From: Ignavibacteriales bacterium
GTDB lineage: Bacteria; Bacteroidota; Ignavibacteria; Ignavibacteriales; Melioribacteraceae
Reading direction: 5' to 3'
NCBI GenBank assembly: GCA_021740915.1
Contig: JAIOYW010000006.1
Location: forward strand, 62,001 to 126,000
DNA length: 64,000 nucleotides
In this document: positions 21,667 through 31,787 of the stretch, one piece after another
Position numbering within the stretch: position 1 is the first letter of the stretch
How the letters are laid out: each line of letters opens with the position of its first letter
Program-made: the position numbers and the translations under genes
The notes under the pieces: generated by a model
Databases searched by the model: none
What the model was told of the DNA's origin: nothing
Seen by the model: only the letters and a program-made list of their open reading frames with translations

Positions 21667-23142
21667 TTGGTGAATATAATTATCTCAACTTTATTAATTC
21701 TTGTTTCAGTAATAGTAATTACGGCTTTGCTTACTGAAAGTCTTGCAGCGAAAGGAATTATCCATAAGGAGATTGCCCGGAAAATTCTTCACCTCACTGC
21801 CGGGGTCTGTGCCGCTCTGAGTCTTACTTTTGAGGGTGTTGAAATATTTCTCTATAGTGCAGGGATTTTAGCCGCTATTTTCAATTTTATTGCCGTGAGA
21901 AAAAATATATTCAAGGGAATCCACAATGGTAACAGAAAAAGCTTCGGGATCTTTTATTTGCCCCTGTCATTTCTTTTTCTTGTTTATATAAGGCAGTTCT
22001 TTCCTTCTGAAGCATTTTATGCAATGCTTATCCTGGCTCTCTCAGATTCACTCGCTGCGCTTGCAGGATTATTTATCCCCGGAAAAAAATTCAACCTGAC
22101 CGGAGATGCTAAGTCTTTCCCCGGTTCCTCTGCGTTTTTTATCACTACTTTCCTCATCCTTTTCATTGGGAATATTTCACAGGGTGTAAATTCGGTCTTT
22201 ATACATTATAACGAATTCGAAAAAATAATTGCCTTCTTCTCGATTGGCATTATTCTTACCGCTTTTGAGGCAATTTCTTCAAGGGGTACTGATAACCTAA
22301 CCGTCCCGGTTGCTTCTGTTTTTCTGCTTATTGTATTTGCCAATGGTCAGGCAGGACTTCCACTCAATTTCTTCACCGGTATATTTTTATCTGCAATTGT
22401 TGCTACAATTTCTTTCAGGGTTGGTTTCCTCACGTCTGATGGTTCTGTTGCCACATTTTTGCTTGCGGGATTTATTTTTGGACTCGGCGGATGGAAATGG
22501 AGTATGCCGATACTGACTTTTTTTATTCTTTCAAGTCTGCTTTCCAAATTCAGAAAAAAAAGAAACCAGAAAGTCGAACTTTATTTCGAAAAGACCGGTA
22601 CGAGGGATTGGCTTCAGGTGGCAGCTAATGGCGGTTTAGGAGGTGTTATCATCTGTTTTGCCCAGATATACCCGGGCGATTTCTGGTATCTTATATATAT
22701 TGCCTCTCTTGCCGCAGTTTGTGCTGACACGTGGGGAACTGAGATTGGAACACTTTGGAAAACTAAAACTATCAGTGTTCTTAATTTTAGAGTAGTCGAA
22801 CAGGGTGTTTCCGGTGGTATTTCTCTTCCCGGGACTTTGGGTGTGCTGACCGGAGCTTTTATTGTGGCACTTTCCGGACTTCACTGGAGTACTATGCCAG
22901 CTGGCCCATATTTACTTCTAATGCTTTTTTCCGGTGTACTTGGAAGTTTTTTTGACAGTGTCCTCGGAGCAACCCTGCAGGTACAATATAAGTGCAATGT
23001 CTGCGGTAAACAAACAGAAAGGGAAATACACTGTAGTGACCGGACTATGCAATCATCCGGAATAAGCTGGATTAATAATGATGTGGTTAATCTGCTCGCG
23101 GGTATTTGCGGCTCCATTGCTGTAGGGCTCATTATATTATGA
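21667..23142 (+). CDS. membrane protein: phytol/dolichol-kinase-like domain fused to DUF92
   Basis: 491 residues and a dozen or so membrane segments. Residues ~1-210 resemble the phytol/dolichol kinase and CDP-diglyceride synthetase-like group (KEIARKILHLTAGV early, ALSDSLAALAGLF about 125-137, GDAKSFPGSSAFF). Residues ~225-491 are a DUF92 domain (TMEM19/VTE6 group): SDGSVATFLLAGFIFGLGG, RDWLQVAANGGLGG, ADTWGTEIG and SLPGTLGVLTGAF. In plants VTE5 phosphorylates phytol and VTE6 phosphorylates phytyl phosphate, so a single protein making an isoprenyl diphosphate from the alcohol is plausible. It overlaps the following TPR gene by 4 bases. The start appears to be GTG or TTG. Confidence 0.8.
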   Translation: MVNIIISTLLILVSVIVITALLTESLAAKGIIHKEIARKILHLTAGVCAALSLTFEGVEIFLYSAGILAAIFNFIAVRKNIFKGIHNGNRKSFGIFYLPLSFLFLVYIRQFFPSEAFYAMLILALSDSLAALAGLFIPGKKFNLTGDAKSFPGSSAFFITTFLILFIGNISQGVNSVFIHYNEFEKIIAFFSIGIILTAFEAISSRGTDNLTVPVASVFLLIVFANGQAGLPLNFFTGIFLSAIVATISFRVGFLTSDGSVATFLLAGFIFGLGGWKWSMPILTFFILSSLLSKFRKKRNQKVELYFEKTGTRDWLQVAANGGLGGVIICFAQIYPGDFWYLIYIASLAAVCADTWGTEIGTLWKTKTISVLNFRVVEQGVSGGISLPGTLGVLTGAFIVALSGLHWSTMPAGPYLLLMLFSGVLGSFFDSVLGATLQVQYKCNVCGKQTEREIHCSDRTMQSSGISWINNDVVNLLAGICGSIAVGLIIL

Positions 23143-26117
23143 TTATTATGATTAGAAAACTATTCTTTATCCTTTTTATTCTTAGCATAAATAAAGCTGT
23201 TTATGCGGGTCCTGCCAAGTATTTTGAGGCGATGTCGCATTATAGGTCTGCAGACTACGCTATTGCCTACGAAATATTTTCAAAGGTTGCTCTATCCGGT
23301 GATATTGATGAGCAGTTACGCGCTTCCGCAGAATTTTATAAAGGAGAATGCCTCCTTGGGCTGAGAGATGCAGACGGCGCTATTATTGCATTTGAAAATT
23401 TTATTGACAAATATTCTTCTTCAGCATTTACTGATTTGGTATATTACAAATTAGGAACATTGTACTATAAGAACACTCAGTATTTTTGGGCAAGACATTA
23501 TCTTACAATGTTGATCAGGAATTATCCGGAGAGCTATTATGCCGGAACAGCTTATTATTGGATAGGACAAGCTTTTCTTAATGAGAATAAGACTGCGGAA
23601 GCAGAAAAATTTTTTCGGGAAGCAATTTCTTCAAGAATAAATAACCGGTTCATCGACTATAGTATTTATAGTCTTGCGAACCTTTACGAAAAAACCGGCG
23701 AACTTGAGAATGCGATTTCGTATTATGACGAACTATTGACATATTATCAAACCAGCAGTCTTGCTCCTTTTGCCCAACTTCGAATTGGTATATGTTATTT
23801 TATACTCAAGGATTACGATAGTGCAGTACTTGAACTTTCTGATCCGCTTATAGGTAAATTACCGTTCGAAGCTATCGGCGAAGCTAAATCGATGCTTGCA
23901 ACATCATTTTTCAGATTGAAAGAATACGAAAATGCCTCGAATACTTTCAGGGAAATGCTTGATCGTTATTCATCCATTGAGATGAATCCCGCTGTTTTAT
24001 TCGGGCTTGCCTGGGTAAATTTCCAGCTCGAAAACTATGGTGAATCACAGAAAATATTCGAACAGCTTTCTGAATCGCCGATTGATTCGATATCTTCAAA
24101 ATCCAAATTCTGGCTTGGTGAAAATTATCGCTATTCTGGCAATTCGGTAAAGGCACTAGAGAAATACGAAAATTTTATTAATAAATATCCATCTCATTAT
24201 CTCACTCCAATCGCCCGGTTTAATATCGGGGTGATTTATTTTAATGATTCTCAGACTGAAAAGGCTGCTGCCTATCTTCGTTCGGTTGTAAAATCAAATG
24301 ACGATAACACTAATGGAAGAGCGCTTACTCTGCTGGGAGAGATAAGCCTTTTTAACAGTGATTTTCCGACAGCCGAAGGATATTTCCGCGAATGTCTCAG
24401 AATAAGGAACCTGCGTGACGACAGCGCGAACCGTTCTACTCTTGGGTTGGCTGTTGCACAGTACTATAAGGGTGAGTATAACGATGCTATTGTCAATCTG
24501 AATTACCTTTCCGATAAGTTTAAAAGATTCGAAAAAGACAGGGTCGCTTATTATTTGGGAGAGTCTTTTTTTGCTCTTAGGGATTATGGAAATGCATTAC
24601 GGGCATTCAGCCGTGTCGGTATCGAAGATAATTCTATATATCTTAAAGCATTATACGGCAGGGCGTATTCACTGTTTAATCTTAAAGATTTTGCAAATGC
24701 ATCATATTATTTTAGTGAATTTCTAAAAATTGAATCTGACCGGAAATACAAAATTGATGCAACCTTAAGGTTGGCAGATAGTTATTACGGAACAAAGAAT
24801 TTTGATAAATCCACCTCTGTATATACTGATGCTTTCCGGAATTACAAAATGAATGAACTCGGTGATTTCGCAGCTTTTCAATACGGTCAGTCACTTTTTA
24901 ACTCTGGTAAGGGCAGCGAAGCGCTCTCAGTTTTTCAAAAACTTCAACGTGATTTTCCTCGATCAGCATATTCGGATGATTCGCAGTATTTCCTTGGCTG
25001 GATTAATTTCAAACTCCGGAATTATGAGACGGCGATCTCGGAGTATCGCAGGCTCGTAAGGTTATATCCTTCATCGAACCTCAGACCAATAGTTTATTAT
25101 TCAATAGGGGATGCTTACTACAATAAAGCAGAATATGATTCTGCGATTGCTTCATATCAGAAGCTGCTCGACGAATTCCCCCGTTCAGAATATGTTATTG
25201 ATGCAGTTAACGGTATCCAGTATAGCTGCATTGCTAAAGAGAATCCCGATCAGGCAGTGTCAATAATAGACAGGTTTGTCTCGTCCTATCCAATGGGTGA
25301 ACTTTCCGATAGAATTCTTTTTAAAAAAGGAGAGATCTATTATGCAGCCGGAGAATACTCTAAGGCTCAGACTGGATATAAGGAGCTGATAGCCACATAT
25401 CCCAGCAGCCTTCTAATACCCGATGCATACTATTGGATTGGTAAATCTGCACTTAGTGAAGGATATGAAGATAAAGCAATTTATAATTTTGAGATTGTGG
25501 TCAATTCTTATCTTTATACAAATATTGCCATTTCTGCTGCAATTGATCTCGGAACAATTTATGCAGGCAGAAAAGAGTATCAGAAAATAATTGAACTTTC
25601 AGATAGGACTATTGAAAATCTTAGGGAATCAGATCGGATTCCCGAAGTATATTTTTTAAAGGGTAAAGCCGAATTAAAGCTGAACGATAAATCACAGGCT
25701 TATAAGACTTTTGCTTTTCTTTCAACAAAATATGAATCGAGCATTTTTGCTTCCAAATCCAAAATTGAGGTCGGCAAATTTGAAATTGAGACCGGAAATC
25801 CCGCAAGAGCCGAGGAAATATTTGGGGAGATCACCCTCCTTCGTTCTGACGATATCGGAGCCGAGGCACAATATTATCTGGGAGTTTCTCTTCTGGAACA
25901 AAAAAAAATAGATGAAGCTATCAGTGCATTCGTCCGGGTTAGAACAGTTTATGCGCGATATGATGAATGGTATTCGCGTTCCTTACTAAAACTGGGTGAC
26001 TGTTATATTGAGAGAAAAGAAAAATTGAAAGCAAAAGAAATGTTCAGGGCTGTTGCTGAGAAACATAAAGACGATGAGATAGGCAAAGAAGCAAGAAAAA
26101 AACTGAGGAATTTATGA
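23139..26117 (+). CDS. giant exported TPR-repeat protein (YbgF/CpoB/BamD-like repeats)
   Basis: About 992 residues. The ATG at 23139 overlaps the DUF92 stop (ATGA); another ATG is at 23148. A signal peptide (KLFFILFILSINKAVYAG) is followed by TPR units along almost the whole length. Many have the spacing Y-x3-G-x2-Y-x6-A-x3-Y/F-x4-YP-x-S, such as FAAFQYGQSLFNSGKGSEAL and DAYYWIGKSALSEGYEDKAI. This is the TPR type of YbgF/CpoB and BamD, which act in the periplasm. It starts a coupled series with the barrel, HU/SPOR and ExbB/ExbD/TonB genes. Confidence 0.85.
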   Translation: MIIMIRKLFFILFILSINKAVYAGPAKYFEAMSHYRSADYAIAYEIFSKVALSGDIDEQLRASAEFYKGECLLGLRDADGAIIAFENFIDKYSSSAFTDLVYYKLGTLYYKNTQYFWARHYLTMLIRNYPESYYAGTAYYWIGQAFLNENKTAEAEKFFREAISSRINNRFIDYSIYSLANLYEKTGELENAISYYDELLTYYQTSSLAPFAQLRIGICYFILKDYDSAVLELSDPLIGKLPFEAIGEAKSMLATSFFRLKEYENASNTFREMLDRYSSIEMNPAVLFGLAWVNFQLENYGESQKIFEQLSESPIDSISSKSKFWLGENYRYSGNSVKALEKYENFINKYPSHYLTPIARFNIGVIYFNDSQTEKAAAYLRSVVKSNDDNTNGRALTLLGEISLFNSDFPTAEGYFRECLRIRNLRDDSANRSTLGLAVAQYYKGEYNDAIVNLNYLSDKFKRFEKDRVAYYLGESFFALRDYGNALRAFSRVGIEDNSIYLKALYGRAYSLFNLKDFANASYYFSEFLKIESDRKYKIDATLRLADSYYGTKNFDKSTSVYTDAFRNYKMNELGDFAAFQYGQSLFNSGKGSEALSVFQKLQRDFPRSAYSDDSQYFLGWINFKLRNYETAISEYRRLVRLYPSSNLRPIVYYSIGDAYYNKAEYDSAIASYQKLLDEFPRSEYVIDAVNGIQYSCIAKENPDQAVSIIDRFVSSYPMGELSDRILFKKGEIYYAAGEYSKAQTGYKELIATYPSSLLIPDAYYWIGKSALSEGYEDKAIYNFEIVVNSYLYTNIAISAAIDLGTIYAGRKEYQKIIELSDRTIENLRESDRIPEVYFLKGKAELKLNDKSQAYKTFAFLSTKYESSIFASKSKIEVGKFEIETGNPARAEEIFGEITLLRSDDIGAEAQYYLGVSLLEQKKIDEAISAFVRVRTVYARYDEWYSRSLLKLGDCYIERKEKLKAKEMFRAVAEKHKDDEIGKEARKKLRNL

Positions 26118-27724
26118 AAAATTATTTTTTGCTTTTTCTTGCGGCCATTTTAACTTTTTCCGGAAAACACCTTTCTCAGGAAAAACCGAGGGGAGTGGAA
26201 CTTCCGGAATTCGTGATAACCGGTGTCCAGAAAATCAATATTCCGCAAATGGATAAATTAAAACCGGATTTTTTACCGACTCTCGGAAAAGATTTTTTCA
26301 GTCCTCCGATTTCGCCCGAAGATTTCAAACTGGCTGAGATATCTAATCCCATAAACCTGAATGCAGATTTATACGAAAAAAAAGATCCGGTCAATTTTCT
26401 GCTTAGAGCGGAAGGCGGGAAAGAAACGATGCCCGGCGGGCTGATCCGCGCATCCGGGGCACTTGCCGGAATTCTCTTCGATGGAGGCTTTGAATATTCC
26501 CGGATCAGGGATTACAAGGTTAATGCCGGTTCGAGGGATTATCTCGGTAAATTAGCGCTGAATTATTTTACCGGGAATAATTCGGGATTCTTCAGTAAAA
26601 ATACTCTTTCAGTTGAAGCGTCTTTAGGTAGCGGCGAGTATTACCTTTTTGGATCAGATTTCTATGATACGAAGAGAGAATACGATTCCCGGAGATTAAA
26701 ACTCAGCTATAACAATTCAAATTATAGTTTTCTGAGTTTCGGAGGGGATGCAGATTTTTCCAGCCTGGATTTGGAAGAAACTCAGATAACCAGTTCGACC
26801 TACGGTATGCAGGAAATGAACGCTCATGGCGGATTCGACCTCATTTTCCCGGATGTAAAATTTTCAGGTAATACAAATTTCAGCAGATATATAAATCGAA
26901 TTGATTTCCTCAATAGCGGTAGTTCTGATTTAATAAGTTTGTCAGGTGTTTTGAAATTGACGCCGTCAGTTGGTTTCCAAATCGGCGGCGGAGCAAATTA
27001 TTACCAATCTGCAACTAAATCATCTATTTACCCTTACGCTCTTATCTCGCTGAAAATGGGGAATTCGATCACAATACTGGGCGAATATACACCTGGTTTC
27101 ACAAGGCTTTCTCCAGTGTCTTTCCAAACGAAGAATCCTTATACTGATCTGCTGCAACTGACAGGGAATCTTGAAGAAAGGACGCTTGACATTAAGGGTG
27201 CACTGAAATTTGAATATGATAAATACTTTGAGATTAATGCAGGTGTCCGGTATGCAAAAAGTGATAACCGGGCATATTTTGAGGATATCAATGCTGACGG
27301 GATTTTTAATATTGCAGCGATATCCGGAGTAAGTACTTTTGAATTAAACACAAATTTTTTGTTTTATAATGGTCCTTCGGGGGAGTTTTATGCAAATGCA
27401 GCATATTTAGAAACTAAATCCGGAGATTTTTACCTGCCCTATATTCCCCAAATATTCGGGGAAGCTTATTACAGATTTAATATGCTCAGTTTTCTACGCC
27501 TCGAACCCGGGATTGAAATAAAATTAAAATCATATGAATCAATCGTTAATGACAGTGAATTGCCGGCTTATTATGACCTTAAACTAAATATGTGTGTGGA
27601 AATATATGAGAGCTTTTTAATCGATTTCCGATTCTCAAATATTTTAAACAGGGAAAATTTTATTTTTAGAAATTATCCCGGAAAACCTTCCGATCTTATT
27701 GTTCGCGCAGAATTTCGTTTTTGA
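26114..27724 (+). CDS. predicted outer-membrane beta-barrel protein
   Basis: 536 residues with a signal peptide (FLLFLAAILTFSGKHLSQ). After a Pro-rich N-terminus (about 25-95) the sequence shows alternating aromatic/polar strands (GGFEYSRIRDYKVNAG, LKLSYNNSNYSFLSFGGDADF). The C-terminal strand ends in FRF, typical of outer-membrane barrels. The last part (LRLEPGIEIKLKSY to LIVRAEFRF) resembles the end of TonB-dependent receptors, but no plug domain is present. The ATG overlaps the TPR gene stop by 4 bases, so the two are translationally coupled and probably partners. Confidence 0.72.
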   Translation: MKNYFLLFLAAILTFSGKHLSQEKPRGVELPEFVITGVQKINIPQMDKLKPDFLPTLGKDFFSPPISPEDFKLAEISNPINLNADLYEKKDPVNFLLRAEGGKETMPGGLIRASGALAGILFDGGFEYSRIRDYKVNAGSRDYLGKLALNYFTGNNSGFFSKNTLSVEASLGSGEYYLFGSDFYDTKREYDSRRLKLSYNNSNYSFLSFGGDADFSSLDLEETQITSSTYGMQEMNAHGGFDLIFPDVKFSGNTNFSRYINRIDFLNSGSSDLISLSGVLKLTPSVGFQIGGGANYYQSATKSSIYPYALISLKMGNSITILGEYTPGFTRLSPVSFQTKNPYTDLLQLTGNLEERTLDIKGALKFEYDKYFEINAGVRYAKSDNRAYFEDINADGIFNIAAISGVSTFELNTNFLFYNGPSGEFYANAAYLETKSGDFYLPYIPQIFGEAYYRFNMLSFLRLEPGIEIKLKSYESIVNDSELPAYYDLKLNMCVEIYESFLIDFRFSNILNRENFIFRNYPGKPSDLIVRAEFRF

Positions 27725-27781
27725 TATCTGTTCCATTGGCGAAAACACTACATTATTCGTATATTGAGGTAAACTATATGA

Positions 27782-29821
27782 ATGAATATAATGGTACAAG
27801 AATACTTAAAAGAAAAGCTTAAAAGTCTTCTCGATATTAATTCATACGAAAAAGAACTCGGCTTCTCATTATTTATTGATGAGCTAAAGGGAATTTTCGA
27901 GAATTATGCAGCCGTAAGAATTGCGGGTTTAGGTACTTTTACGTCTAAAAAGGAATCTTCAGAAAGTGGAATCGGTAAACTTGAGCAGATTCTTTTCGTC
28001 CCTGAAAAACCAGGAGAAATTTTAAGTGTTAAGCCGTCATACTACTACATTATCAAAGAATTTGTTGCCGGGAAAGACCAAATAGCAGGTGAGGATTTGT
28101 TTTCTCCTGCCGTTGGGGGCGCTTTTAATTCTATAATATTAGGTGATACATCCAATGATTCAGTAAGGAAAGTAATACGGGATAAAATTGCAAATCTGAT
28201 TCTGAATGAAGAATATCTGGATAGTTATGACCTGTGGCAGGATTATACAGCGCCTCAGATTGAATTACATTCGGGGGCAGTAACAGCAAAAAAAGCAGAT
28301 AGTTCGGAAAATGAAGATTTGATGAATCTTCTGGAAGATGCTGATCTTGAGGACGATTCAAGCCCTGATGAAACGGAAGAAGCAGGGGCGGAACCTATTG
28401 ATGAAGGCATTATAGTTGATGACTTTAATAATGCAGAACAGCCTGACCTCTATAAAGATTCAGATGTTCCTGAAGATGAAGAAACAGCTAAATTTGTACA
28501 AGATGAAATGCAGGAAGATTTCCGGATTGAGGATGAGATACCGGAGAAAATAGAAAGCGCTGAAGCACCTGATGAGGAATTAACAGAGCCTCAGGATGCT
28601 GAGACCGACCAGGCTGAAGAGGATTTCTGGAAGCTTTTTTCATTGGAAACAGGGACAGAGATGAGAAAGGATTCTGTGAATTTACGCACGGATGAACCTT
28701 CAGATCCTAAGGATGAAACTTCTATTGCCGATGAAGGGCAAGATGAGTTATCTGATGAACAAGCAGATAGTTCCTGGACCTGGGACGGAAGTGAACATGA
28801 ATCCTTAAGAGATTCGGACGAAGAAGAAGACTTGCAGGAAGATGGCGCAGAATTTTCAGATGATACAGAAGATTCAGAAGCTACAGACGATAGACCTAGC
28901 TCCCCCGATATACATGATGAAATCGAATTGCCTGAACTTCCTGAGATGATTGATGAAGAACCCGAAGATGCAGATGAACTGGAAGTAGATCATTCACGCT
29001 TTGAAATCTTTTCACCTGAAGAGCCAGAGGAAGAAAAGGAAGAACCGCGGAAGGATATTTACCAGCCAGATGAAGAATTACCGGCAACTCCTGTAAAACA
29101 CGAAGATGCTGTTTCAACCACTTTTGAAAAGCAGCACGTTCTCCACCCACCAATTGATAAGGAATGGGCTGATATTTATTCTGATTTTGATATGCCCGGT
29201 GATTCAAGTCCCCAAAGTGAAGCGTTATTAACTGAAAAAGAAGATACAGGCGTAGATGAACTAGACGAAGAACCAAAATCTAATCGTTTTTACTGGATTC
29301 TGGGAGGCATTCTTCTTGCAGTAATATTTTTATTTGCTATTTATTTCCTGTTTATCAAACCGGGAGAAAATCCTGAGGAACCGCAATCCTCAGCGCAGGA
29401 AACAATTTTCGAAGACGAAACTCCCGCAAAGGATAAACCTGTTTTTGAACAAACCCCAAAAATTTCCGGAACTGATGAGGGGGAAAAGGTTGTAAAAGAA
29501 AAGTCAATTGCTTCTGCTGAGAAAGTGACTGCACGACCTAATGCACCGGAAACACAATCAGGATTATTTAGAAATATTTATGATGCAGTTCCTTATTCAA
29601 GAACGGATATGGTTTATACAGATCAAGGTCGATTTTACGTACAGATTATGGCTATTGGAGATAAAGCCCGAGCTGAAAAGGAAGCTGACAAACTGATCAA
29701 AAAGGGGTACAAAAGTTTTATAACTTATTTTAACTCGCCGAAGGGATTACTCTATAGGGTGAATATAGGATATTTTAATTCATCCGAAGAAGCTAAATCT
29801 GCGGGAGTTTCCGCAAGATAA
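27782..29821 (+). CDS. inner-membrane protein with HU-like N-terminus, acidic linker and SPOR domain
   Basis: 679 residues (ATG at 27782, or 27791). Residues ~1-95 match the bacterial CCDC81-type HU domain: LKSLLDINSYEKELGFSLF, AVRIAGLGTFTSKK and VKPSYYYIIKEF. Residues ~105-150 may be a second small domain. About 150-490 is very acidic, rich in Glu, Asp, Pro and Ser, and probably disordered. One membrane helix lies at ~502-522 (FYWILGGILLAVIFLFAIYF). The C-terminal ~75 residues are a SPOR domain (YVQIMAIGDKARAEKEADKL ... YRVNIGYFNSSEEA). SPOR binds septal peptidoglycan denuded of stem peptides. The topology puts the HU-like part in the cytoplasm and SPOR in the periplasm. Confidence 0.85.
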   Translation: MNIMVQEYLKEKLKSLLDINSYEKELGFSLFIDELKGIFENYAAVRIAGLGTFTSKKESSESGIGKLEQILFVPEKPGEILSVKPSYYYIIKEFVAGKDQIAGEDLFSPAVGGAFNSIILGDTSNDSVRKVIRDKIANLILNEEYLDSYDLWQDYTAPQIELHSGAVTAKKADSSENEDLMNLLEDADLEDDSSPDETEEAGAEPIDEGIIVDDFNNAEQPDLYKDSDVPEDEETAKFVQDEMQEDFRIEDEIPEKIESAEAPDEELTEPQDAETDQAEEDFWKLFSLETGTEMRKDSVNLRTDEPSDPKDETSIADEGQDELSDEQADSSWTWDGSEHESLRDSDEEEDLQEDGAEFSDDTEDSEATDDRPSSPDIHDEIELPELPEMIDEEPEDADELEVDHSRFEIFSPEEPEEEKEEPRKDIYQPDEELPATPVKHEDAVSTTFEKQHVLHPPIDKEWADIYSDFDMPGDSSPQSEALLTEKEDTGVDELDEEPKSNRFYWILGGILLAVIFLFAIYFLFIKPGENPEEPQSSAQETIFEDETPAKDKPVFEQTPKISGTDEGEKVVKEKSIASAEKVTARPNAPETQSGLFRNIYDAVPYSRTDMVYTDQGRFYVQIMAIGDKARAEKEADKLIKKGYKSFITYFNSPKGLLYRVNIGYFNSSEEAKSAGVSAR

Positions 29822-29842
29822 TTATTACAGGATAGTTTTTTT

Positions 29843-30475
29843 ATGAATCTGGTTTCAATATTGCTTAAGGGCGGCTGGCTTATGCTGCCCATTTTTTTGT
29901 CGTCAATTGTTGCGGTTGCGATCATTATTGACAGGTACCTTGTCCTTAGAAGAGCCTCGATGAATGTCCCGGCATTTCTTCTGAAAATCCGCAGCCTCAT
30001 TAAGAATCGGGATATTGATGGCGCAATGAATTATTGTGTCGAGGAAAAGTCACCAGCGGCAAATATAGTGAGGAAAGGTCTTAAGAAGATAAATTTGGGC
30101 CACGAGCGTGTAAAAGAGGCTATTGAAGCTGCAGGCAGACAAGAGGTGAGCCGGCTGGAAAAAGGCTTATCAATTCTGGCTACTATTTCCGGAGTCGCAC
30201 CGCTTCTTGGATTTTTAGGAACTGTTACAGGTATGATCTCGGCATTTATGAGAATAGAAACTCTGCAAGGTTCAGCAAATCCGAGCGATCTTGCCGGCGG
30301 AATATGGGAAGCCCTTATAACAACGGCATTTGGACTTGCGGTGGGTATTATTGCATTGACATTCTATAATATGCTGATAAGTTCAATAAGCAAACTTGTG
30401 CTTGACATGGAAGTGGTTTCTAACGACGTAATAGACATCATTGAAGAAGCTTCCAGGGCGAAAACCCAGAACTGA
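29843..30475 (+). CDS. MotA/TolQ/ExbB proton channel protein
   Basis: 210 residues. Three membrane segments: about 10-30 (WLMLPIFLSSIVAVAIIID), about 108-130 around LSILATISGVAPLLGFLGTVTGMISAF, and about 150-175 (ALITTAFGLAVGIIALTFYNM). The GVAPLLGFLGTVTGM and ALITTAFGLAVGI motifs are those of the ExbB/TolQ family, which with ExbD/TolR forms a proton-driven motor. It is 21 bases after the HU/SPOR gene and 1 base before exbD. Confidence 0.93.
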   Translation: MNLVSILLKGGWLMLPIFLSSIVAVAIIIDRYLVLRRASMNVPAFLLKIRSLIKNRDIDGAMNYCVEEKSPAANIVRKGLKKINLGHERVKEAIEAAGRQEVSRLEKGLSILATISGVAPLLGFLGTVTGMISAFMRIETLQGSANPSDLAGGIWEALITTAFGLAVGIIALTFYNMLISSISKLVLDMEVVSNDVIDIIEEASRAKTQN

Positions 30476-30476
30476 T

Positions 30477-30878
30477 ATGAAATTCGAAACATCTAATAAA
30501 CCCCTGAGCATATTTAGTTTTTCATCACTTACGGATATCGTGATGTTGTTGTTGATCTTTTTCCTTTTAACTTCACAATTTGTTATTCAAACAGGCGTTA
30601 AAGTCAGACTTCCGGGAGCTGAAAATAATGAGCAGACTTCGCCTTCAAGATTGATTATTTCGATCACTGAAGACAACAGGTTTTATTTCGGTAATACCGA
30701 GATTGGAATGGATGAAATTGGTATAAGGCTTTCACAGGCTGCGGCCAGCGAAAACGAGAAGGCACTTATTATCAGAGCCGATAAATCTGTAAAGATTGAT
30801 ATTGTAATAAAAATAATTGATACTGCGAAGGGACTTGGAATCGATAAATTTACTATTGAGACGGAAAAAGTCGAATAA
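30477..30878 (+). CDS. ExbD/TolR biopolymer transport protein
   Basis: 133 residues from the ATG at 30477; a longer reading frame begins inside exbB. A short cytoplasmic N-terminus is followed by one membrane segment, LTDIVMLLLIFFLLTSQF (about 19-36), including the conserved membrane Asp (residue 21) that carries protons. A periplasmic domain (IIRADKSVKIDIVIKIIDTAKGLGI) follows. It starts one base after the exbB stop. Confidence 0.93.
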   Translation: MKFETSNKPLSIFSFSSLTDIVMLLLIFFLLTSQFVIQTGVKVRLPGAENNEQTSPSRLIISITEDNRFYFGNTEIGMDEIGIRLSQAAASENEKALIIRADKSVKIDIVIKIIDTAKGLGIDKFTIETEKVE

Positions 30879-30880
30879 TA

Positions 30881-31513
30881 ATGAACAAAGAGAAAATTAA
30901 TCTCAGTTCTTATCTTCTTTCTTTTGCATTTCATCTGGTTATAACTCTGTTGTTCCTTCTTTTCCATTTCTCACCTAATGCAATTGATGAGGACTATGTT
31001 ATTATTGGATTTGGAACTGGCTCCGGTATTCCATCAGCTATGCCACCCCAAAATCAGGTTCAAAAATCTGATGAGAAAGAAAAGATGGAATTACCAGTGG
31101 CAAAAAATCCTTTTGATAATGAGTCTGTAATCAGTGAAAAGAAAAAAAATGACGGAAAATCCCGCCGGGATGAAGAACTTAAAAATGAAAAACAATCTTT
31201 GGTCAGCGAATATTATGGTGATGGTTCTGCCGGCTATAATATTGATTTTGGTGCCGGTGGAGTCAGAAAAATTTATAGTTTTATTATTCCTCCTTACCCG
31301 GAAGGAGTTGAGAAAGAAATTGATGTCAAACTTAGGTTTACTATTATGCCTGATGGTTCAGTCGGAAGAATTTTCCCATTAATAAAGGCGGATTCGAGGT
31401 TGGAAGAATCTGCGATCACTGCGCTCAGGCAATGGAGATTTGAACCGCAATCACCCGCCAAAAAACAGTCAGAGCAGACTGCCACTATTATTTTCCCTTT
31501 CCGGCTCCGCTGA
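30881..31513 (+). CDS. TonB-family energy-transducing protein
   Basis: 210 residues. One N-terminal membrane anchor (about 6-27, YLLSFAFHLVITLLFLLFHF) includes the conserved His of TonB/TolA anchors. A Lys/Glu-rich linker (60-105) precedes a C-terminal TonB domain (about 125-210: PPYPEGVEKEIDVKLRFTIMPDG, ALRQWRFEPQ, IIFPFRLR). It completes an ExbB-ExbD-TonB trio. The stop overlaps by 26 bases with the 3' end of the convergent minus-strand gene. Its target may be the barrel protein encoded upstream. Confidence 0.88.
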   Translation: MNKEKINLSSYLLSFAFHLVITLLFLLFHFSPNAIDEDYVIIGFGTGSGIPSAMPPQNQVQKSDEKEKMELPVAKNPFDNESVISEKKKNDGKSRRDEELKNEKQSLVSEYYGDGSAGYNIDFGAGGVRKIYSFIIPPYPEGVEKEIDVKLRFTIMPDGSVGRIFPLIKADSRLEESAITALRQWRFEPQSPAKKQSEQTATIIFPFRLR

Positions 31514-31787
31514 CAAAAACATCGGAATAATATCCTTTGTAAAAAAAATATTCTCCGATACTCAGGAGACTCAGAGTAATTGTGTCCCGGTCAAAATGCT
31601 TACCTAATCCCTCCGGTTCAACGAATGCATTGATCACCCAGGCGGTAAGCGACCAGCCAACAGCGAATAAAACTATGATGAATGCCAGATCAATAAATGC
31701 ATCTTTAACAGACCTGTTTTTAATCCGGTTTCTCATCACCAGATAAATAAAAATTGCATGCAGCAGAAAAATAAAAACATTAATCAT
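31488..31787 (-). CDS. small membrane protein, unknown
   Basis: 99 residues with two membrane segments (about 2-17 and about 30-53, including LAFIIVLFAVGWSLTAWVINA). I do not recognise a family. It is the last gene of a four-gene minus-strand run, with only a 4-base gap to the preceding gene. Its last 26 bases overlap the end of tonB, so the two transcripts are antisense at their tails. Confidence 0.55.
   Translation of the reverse strand: MINVFIFLLHAIFIYLVMRNRIKNRSVKDAFIDLAFIIVLFAVGWSLTAWVINAFVEPEGLGKHFDRDTITLSLLSIGEYFFYKGYYSDVFVSGAGKGK

Follow-up and report, generated by a model that had tools for sequence, protein, structure and literature searches.

The Tol-Pal machine pulls the outer membrane inward at cell division, and how the outer membrane is constricted without Tol-Pal is the question at stake in Bacteroidota, a major phylum of gut, oral and soil bacteria. 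A 2025 survey could identify no tol-pal loci in Bacteroidetes and offers as a candidate stand-in PorE, a CpoB-TolB-Pal-like fusion lipoprotein proposed to tether the outer membrane to peptidoglycan (PMC12204202). PorE has neither a dedicated motor nor a barrel, unlike the gene cassette that we report; the main text of that survey mentions neither Ignavibacteria nor SPOR proteins, and the sections consulted do not describe the cassette (PMC12204202), nor did we find a description of it among the papers returned by a literature search. The cassette represents a variation on ExbBD-TonB/Tol machines, its unusual part being a plugless outer-membrane barrel with a TonB-box-like motif, and it provides a concrete, conserved and testable alternative to PorE. 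From the architecture and distribution that we observed, we infer, with somewhat better than even confidence, that it acts as a dedicated proton-driven coupler of inner membrane, wall and outer membrane, doing the job of Tol-Pal with unrelated outer-membrane parts.

The window (the whole 64,000-nucleotide stretch analysed) derives from a 4.35 Mb Ignavibacteriales genome whose closest relatives in our collection are Melioribacteraceae and other Ignavibacteria. A first-pass annotation, made from the sequence alone, had placed six genes on one strand, and we recover each where it was placed, tightly packed on the forward strand in the order TPR, barrel, HU/TM/SPOR, ExbB, ExbD and TonB. The coupling by short overlaps and gaps claimed for them is equally apparent: a DUF92/dolichol-kinase-like membrane protein gene (21667..23142, +; PF01940, E=6e-62) adjoins the TPR gene (23139..26117, +) upstream, 4-base ATGA overlaps occur at both the DUF92/TPR and TPR/barrel junctions, and the gaps from the barrel gene (26114..27724, +) through those for HU/SPOR (27782..29821, +), ExbB (29843..30475, +) and ExbD (30477..30878, +; ATG start assigned from sequence) to TonB (30881..31513, +) are 57, 21, 1 and 2 bases. 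A promoter scan of the region was uninformative (34 sites, where chance alone predicts 34.8), and the terminator scan (19 terminator-like sites against 10.8 expected) was not used because its strongest site falls inside the ExbB coding start. Downstream, a small membrane-protein gene (window 31488-31787, −) overlaps the 3′ end of tonB (31513) by ~26 bases. The same convergent arrangement is seen in most Ignavibacteriales loci, where two further membrane proteins (DUF4199-like and DUF2085) and an NHL protein come next.

Conservation of the six-gene order in related genomes had been set beforehand as a check on the grouping, which its absence from close relatives would have undermined. The order TPR-barrel-SPOR-ExbB-ExbD-TonB is in fact kept in 54 of the 55 Ignavibacteriales loci with sufficient flank (from 80 contigs in which ExbB was found), well above chance. 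The ATGA overlap between TPR and barrel genes is retained in 49 of the 54 loci, and the barrel gene is present in 56 of 58 relatives. One Ignavibacteria contig (L045:7726-8811) carries ExbB as a longer frame, with no separate ExbD found, and may represent a fusion or a frameshift.

The first gene encodes the exported TPR protein of ~990 residues that had been predicted: a signal peptide precedes YbgF/BamD-type repeats along all 992 residues, consistent with a periplasmic solenoid. It matches Pfam TPR families and, in 11 stretches, the NCBIfam model tol_pal_ybgF (294.9 bits, cut-off 90.1); the sheer number of repeats causes the YbgF/BamD cut-offs to be exceeded many times over. A lipobox is absent from 60 of 61 orthologues, the remaining one having a lipobox-like pattern. 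We rejected identity with CpoB itself (130 bits against a cut-off of 383) and with PorW/SprE of the type IX secretion system (T9SS), which is matched through the TPRs only (128.3 bits against 250); since both equivalog cut-offs are missed, the protein is CpoB-like in its repeats but is not CpoB. CpoB/YbgF proteins are small, with an N-terminal coiled coil and C-terminal TPRs, whereas here the repeats run throughout.

The second gene product (536 residues) has no match in Pfam, NCBIfam or PHROG, but AlphaFold2 (single chain, built from a 43-orthologue alignment, pLDDT 83.4) models it confidently as a barrel of TonB-receptor type. The model comprises a signal peptide, a mostly disordered stretch (residues 14-89) and a barrel over residues 91-536, for which every top-ranking structural match is a TonB-dependent transporter (FhuA, Z 23.7, rmsd 2.7 over 423 aligned residues; BtuB, Z 23.3). 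Both matches begin after the plugs of these transporters, from residue 158 of FhuA and residue 134 of BtuB, and a Plug domain (PF07715) was not found in the barrel protein, which lies outside the genome's 35 Plug-domain matches. The predicted fold is that of a 22-strand TonB-dependent transporter without its plug. Because the plug is absent, the barrel cannot be an ordinary gated transporter, and it would be a TonB target of a different kind.

The most conserved segment of the barrel family, ELP[DE]FVITG, is situated at the disordered mature N-terminus (ELPEFVITG, residues 29-37, at 26198..26224, +). Across the 43 orthologues E, P, F, I and G are invariant, while L, V and T are each retained in at least 90%. 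Ordinary receptors of the same genome present DEVVVSA, DEVVVTA or DQVVVTG at the corresponding place, and the Bacteroidia counterparts of the barrel carry EIEVVRPYKP, EIEIVKER and similar segments. We read the motif as a TonB box unaccompanied by a plug, and which, judging by its sequence, would bind TonB. The motif and the missing plug are both new with respect to the first-pass annotation.

The third protein (679 residues) spans the inner membrane, with an HU-like domain (residues 1-96; 27782..28069, +) on the cytoplasmic side, an acidic linker, a TM helix, a further linker and a periplasmic SPOR domain (29624..29803, +). The SPOR half of this earlier description, a peptidoglycan-binding family, is secure (PF05036, E=8e-12; 45.7 bits against a cut-off of 21). 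The HU half comes from orthologues: the window protein itself falls below the Pfam threshold, PF00216 is matched in 36 of 40 orthologues, and the orthologue profile recovers solved HU structures in the PDB (E=2e-12). HU also heads the structure matches of an AlphaFold2 model of the domain, weakly, the low score (best Z 4.2) possibly reflecting the intertwined dimer that HU forms. The profile matches place the domain in the HU/IHF superfamily; the model displays an arm-like hairpin, and RNPxTG, the usual DNA-binding motif of the HU arms, is absent from the alignment. In Bacteroidia the slot between barrel and ExbB is filled by HU-CCDC81_bac_1/2 + SPOR proteins (PF18174/PF18175), which have the same architecture and occupy this slot in many families, although in some (e.g. 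f31 and f28) they lie away from the barrel; the Ignavibacteriales version differs in having one HU-like domain, closer to PF00216. As HU-CCDC81 is already known to Pfam, this component is not new.

HU family membership in most orthologues, combined with a TM helix and a SPOR domain on the other side, would suit a chromosome-envelope coupler, which would hold DNA through the HU-like domain and tie septation to segregation of the nucleoid; a 2017 paper in Cell Cycle reportedly predicted a role in chromosome partition for the HU-CCDC81 proteins of Bacteroidetes. Several lineages nevertheless keep the rest of the cassette while dispensing with HU: short TM-SPOR proteins without HU are found in five of the mapped loci (L170, L171, L173, L179 and L188), and the proteins of two more (L189 and L196) have no HU match. 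The conserved core is therefore TM-SPOR, to which HU has been added or from which it has been repeatedly lost, and a domain lacking RNPxTG may instead bind protein. We regard the nucleoid link, as originally proposed, as weak on both these counts, and the chromosome-envelope coupler as distinctly improbable.

The remaining three genes encode a proton motor and its transducer, all over curated cut-offs: an ExbB/TolQ-type proton-channel subunit (PF01618, 4e-35, 120.6 bits), an ExbD/TolR-type subunit (PF02472, 2e-26, 93.0 bits) that retains the transmembrane Asp (SLTDIVMLLLIFFLL), and a TonB/TolA-type transducer (PF03544, 1e-7, 32.7 bits) in which a TM helix with SxxxH is followed by a VIIGFGTG motif and then the TonB_C domain (31322-31507). 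The GFGxG-type motif after the helix is shared among the transducers. The motor-contact motif [ST]xxxH is present in TonB from all 76 Ignavibacteriales orthologues, in 13 of 22 non-Ignavibacteriales cassettes with ExbBD and in 2 of 15 cassettes without; its absence from the other 9 of the 22 means that motor-TonB coupling may vary. Cassettes without ExbBD occur in class-level relatives (L169, L172, L174-L178 and L181-L187), where [ST]xxxH is mostly missing, and their sequences suggest a machine minus its own motor, the TPR-barrel-SPOR-TonB parts being kept. Two Porphyromonas gingivalis genes may correspond to the cassette ExbB: PGN_0806 (MotA/TolQ/ExbB family), of which an insertion mutant is viable (PMC5431200), and PG_0782 (motA), scored as essential in transposon mutagenesis and later found to be deletable (PMC10653852).

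The cassette is an old, phylum-level feature and not a peculiarity of one genome. Searching with a barrel profile gave matches in 281 of 392 phylum genomes, a count whose weak matches include ordinary TonB receptors, and we therefore mapped the genes around 59 barrels outside Ignavibacteriales (drawn from the better matches and then from added families, a non-random sample giving examples, not frequencies). All six genes stand in order at 16 of these 59 loci; only the adjacent TPR is missing at 6, while at another 6 TPR-barrel-SPOR-ExbBD are present and TonB is not recognised by the profile used. TPR-barrel-SPOR-TonB without ExbBD accounts for 15 loci, TPR-barrel-SPOR/HU for 3, barrel-SPOR-ExbBD for 1 and TPR-barrel alone for 12. 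Whole or partly dispersed, the cassette spans Ignavibacteriales to Bacteroidia.

The TPR and barrel genes, which overlap, are the most persistent cassette pair (the 12 loci that keep these alone), and the barrel is of an open, plugless TonB-dependent transporter type; TPR-barrel pairings are familiar from the polysaccharide exporters AlgK-AlgE, PgaA and BcsC. One could accordingly envisage a TonB-energised export or import channel, a large plugless pore that TonB opens and for which the TPR protein and the barrel's own N-terminal tail act as the gate, with SPOR serving only for positioning. We think such a channel unlikely, given that the SPOR protein and a dedicated motor travel with the barrel, that a 22-strand pore left permanently open would carry a high cost, and that the recognised conserved neighbours at the mapped loci (where most flanking frames are unassigned) include neither a polysaccharide synthase nor a substrate-binding lipoprotein, nor any transport gene.

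Phylogenetic analysis of ExbB groups the cassette proteins of Ignavibacteriales, Bacteroidia and the lineages between them in a single clade (support 98/95; bootstrap recovery 96%). Two further ExbB clades from these genomes fall outside it, as do the TolQ/ExbB proteins of E. coli and of family f27 (see below); long outgroup branches leave the deeper branching order unsure. In all four of the TPR-barrel-only lineages examined, a cassette-clade ExbB is located elsewhere with its ExbD, and TonB adjoins this pair in both loci whose sequence extends far enough. Most simply, a single ancestral cassette was vertically inherited and later split or trimmed.

This clade bears on whether ExbB-ExbD-TonB might be an ordinary Ton system for general nutrient uptake, with the three upstream genes as bystanders and the barrel a decayed transporter. 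The cassette shares with systems that serve TonB-dependent transporters the ExbB, ExbD and TonB_C family matches, the TM SxxxH, the TonB-box-like motif and the 22-strand fold, and 35 Plug receptors are encoded in the genome. For these receptors, however, the same genome carries a second such motor, ExbB-ExbD-ExbD, along with a further membrane TonB, hence the cassette is not its general Ton system. In addition, the barrel family lacks the plug yet retains the box-like motif, a combination that does not amount to decay, and the cassette has fixed TPR and SPOR partners to which its ExbB clade is tied phylum-wide. With the second motor, the separate ExbB clade and the plugless barrel all opposed to it, we rejected a generic Ton system as first choice and consider it highly improbable; the first-pass annotation had raised the possibility that TonB/ExbB might be a separate unit, and the motor genes prove to belong to the cassette.

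Comparison with Tol-Pal itself highlights shared logic in different parts. In each, a single operon carries a proton motor with its TonB/TolA-type transducer, a TPR protein of YbgF/CpoB type and a component that binds peptidoglycan; the cassette differs in its gene order (TPR-barrel-SPOR-ExbB-ExbD-TonB) and in having a plugless barrel of TonB-dependent transporter type and a TM-SPOR protein in place of TolB and Pal, a TPR protein ~4 times longer, and an ExbB in a clade apart from TolQ. True membership of Tol-Pal was rejected (tolQ 102.3 bits against 221, tolR 54.7 against 127.3, TolB and Pal absent): TolB_N is matched nowhere in the genome, the cassette included, and no small Pal was found among its OmpA-domain proteins, which comprise proteins of 386-937 residues and two Zorya ZorB proteins.

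Among the 392 phylum genomes, TolB_N on canonical-length TolB frames is essentially confined to f27, probably the green sulfur bacteria, which is the only sampled family with a canonical tolQRAB-pal-cpoB operon. Chlorobiota have a documented Tol-Pal, according to the 2025 survey (PMC12204202). The gene order at three f27 loci is DUF92-tolQ-tolR-tolA-tolB-pal-cpoB, L306 and L307 each having two pal-like genes, and in the one locus scanned TolQ, TolR, TolB, both Pals and YbgF surpass their curated cut-offs. A broader barrel profile found no full-length cassette barrel in five f27 genomes. Tol-Pal in f27 and the cassette both follow the same DUF92 gene: DUF92 lies directly before tolQ in all three f27 loci and directly before TPR in 24 of the 54 Ignavibacteriales loci with room for it, as well as in one class-level outgroup locus, and the f27 protein is homologous to its cassette-side counterpart (33% identity over 509 columns, E=4e-65). 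Near-complementary distribution behind a common neighbour is what functional replacement would look like, although TolB_N is present in only part of f27 and the anti-correlation is therefore clear only at family level. The proposal that the set is a functional counterpart of Tol-Pal/CpoB, as distinct from a member of it, thus gains strong circumstantial support from its conservation, the ExbB clade, the absence of TolB and small Pal, and this distribution.

For the cassette as a proton-driven envelope coupler, we would infer a contact at the TonB box, a TPR-barrel complex, a septal location and constriction of the outer membrane, in the following manner. ExbB-ExbD would use proton flow to drive movement within the inner membrane, acting on the cassette's own TonB, whose C-terminal domain would capture the TonB-box-like motif in the N-terminal tail of the mature, plugless barrel. 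The force would thus be applied to a barrel anchored in the outer membrane instead of to the plug of a nutrient transporter. The TPR protein, translationally coupled to the barrel, may be bound to it as a scaffold, perhaps capping the open lumen, and may recruit wall enzymes in the manner of CpoB. The TM-SPOR protein would bind denuded septal glycan strands and bring the machine to the division site, such that the outer membrane is drawn in along with the constricting wall. The wider proposition is that Tol-Pal has been replaced in most Bacteroidota by this vertically inherited, phylum-wide constriction system, in which TonB pulls a plugless TonB-box barrel on a giant TPR scaffold (a new, non-transporter TonB target) and a SPOR protein, often bearing an HU-like domain, serves as septal locator; we put this forward as a serious possibility that falls a little short of probable.

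Against the coupler reading stand the loci outside Ignavibacteriales where the cassette is trimmed, and tethering of the outer membrane to the wall could also be supplied by the genome's other OmpA-domain proteins. One of these, an exported VWA/TPR/OmpA protein of 937 residues (G000 C29; L130:3887-6697, −), is a possible PorE-like tether. The same genome encodes two Zorya defence loci, one type I-like (ZorA/ZorB/ZorC; G000 C18, L132:2420-6298) and one type II (ZorA2/ZorB2/ZorE; G000 C35, L133:4187-7165), which account for its extra MotA- and OmpA-family matches.
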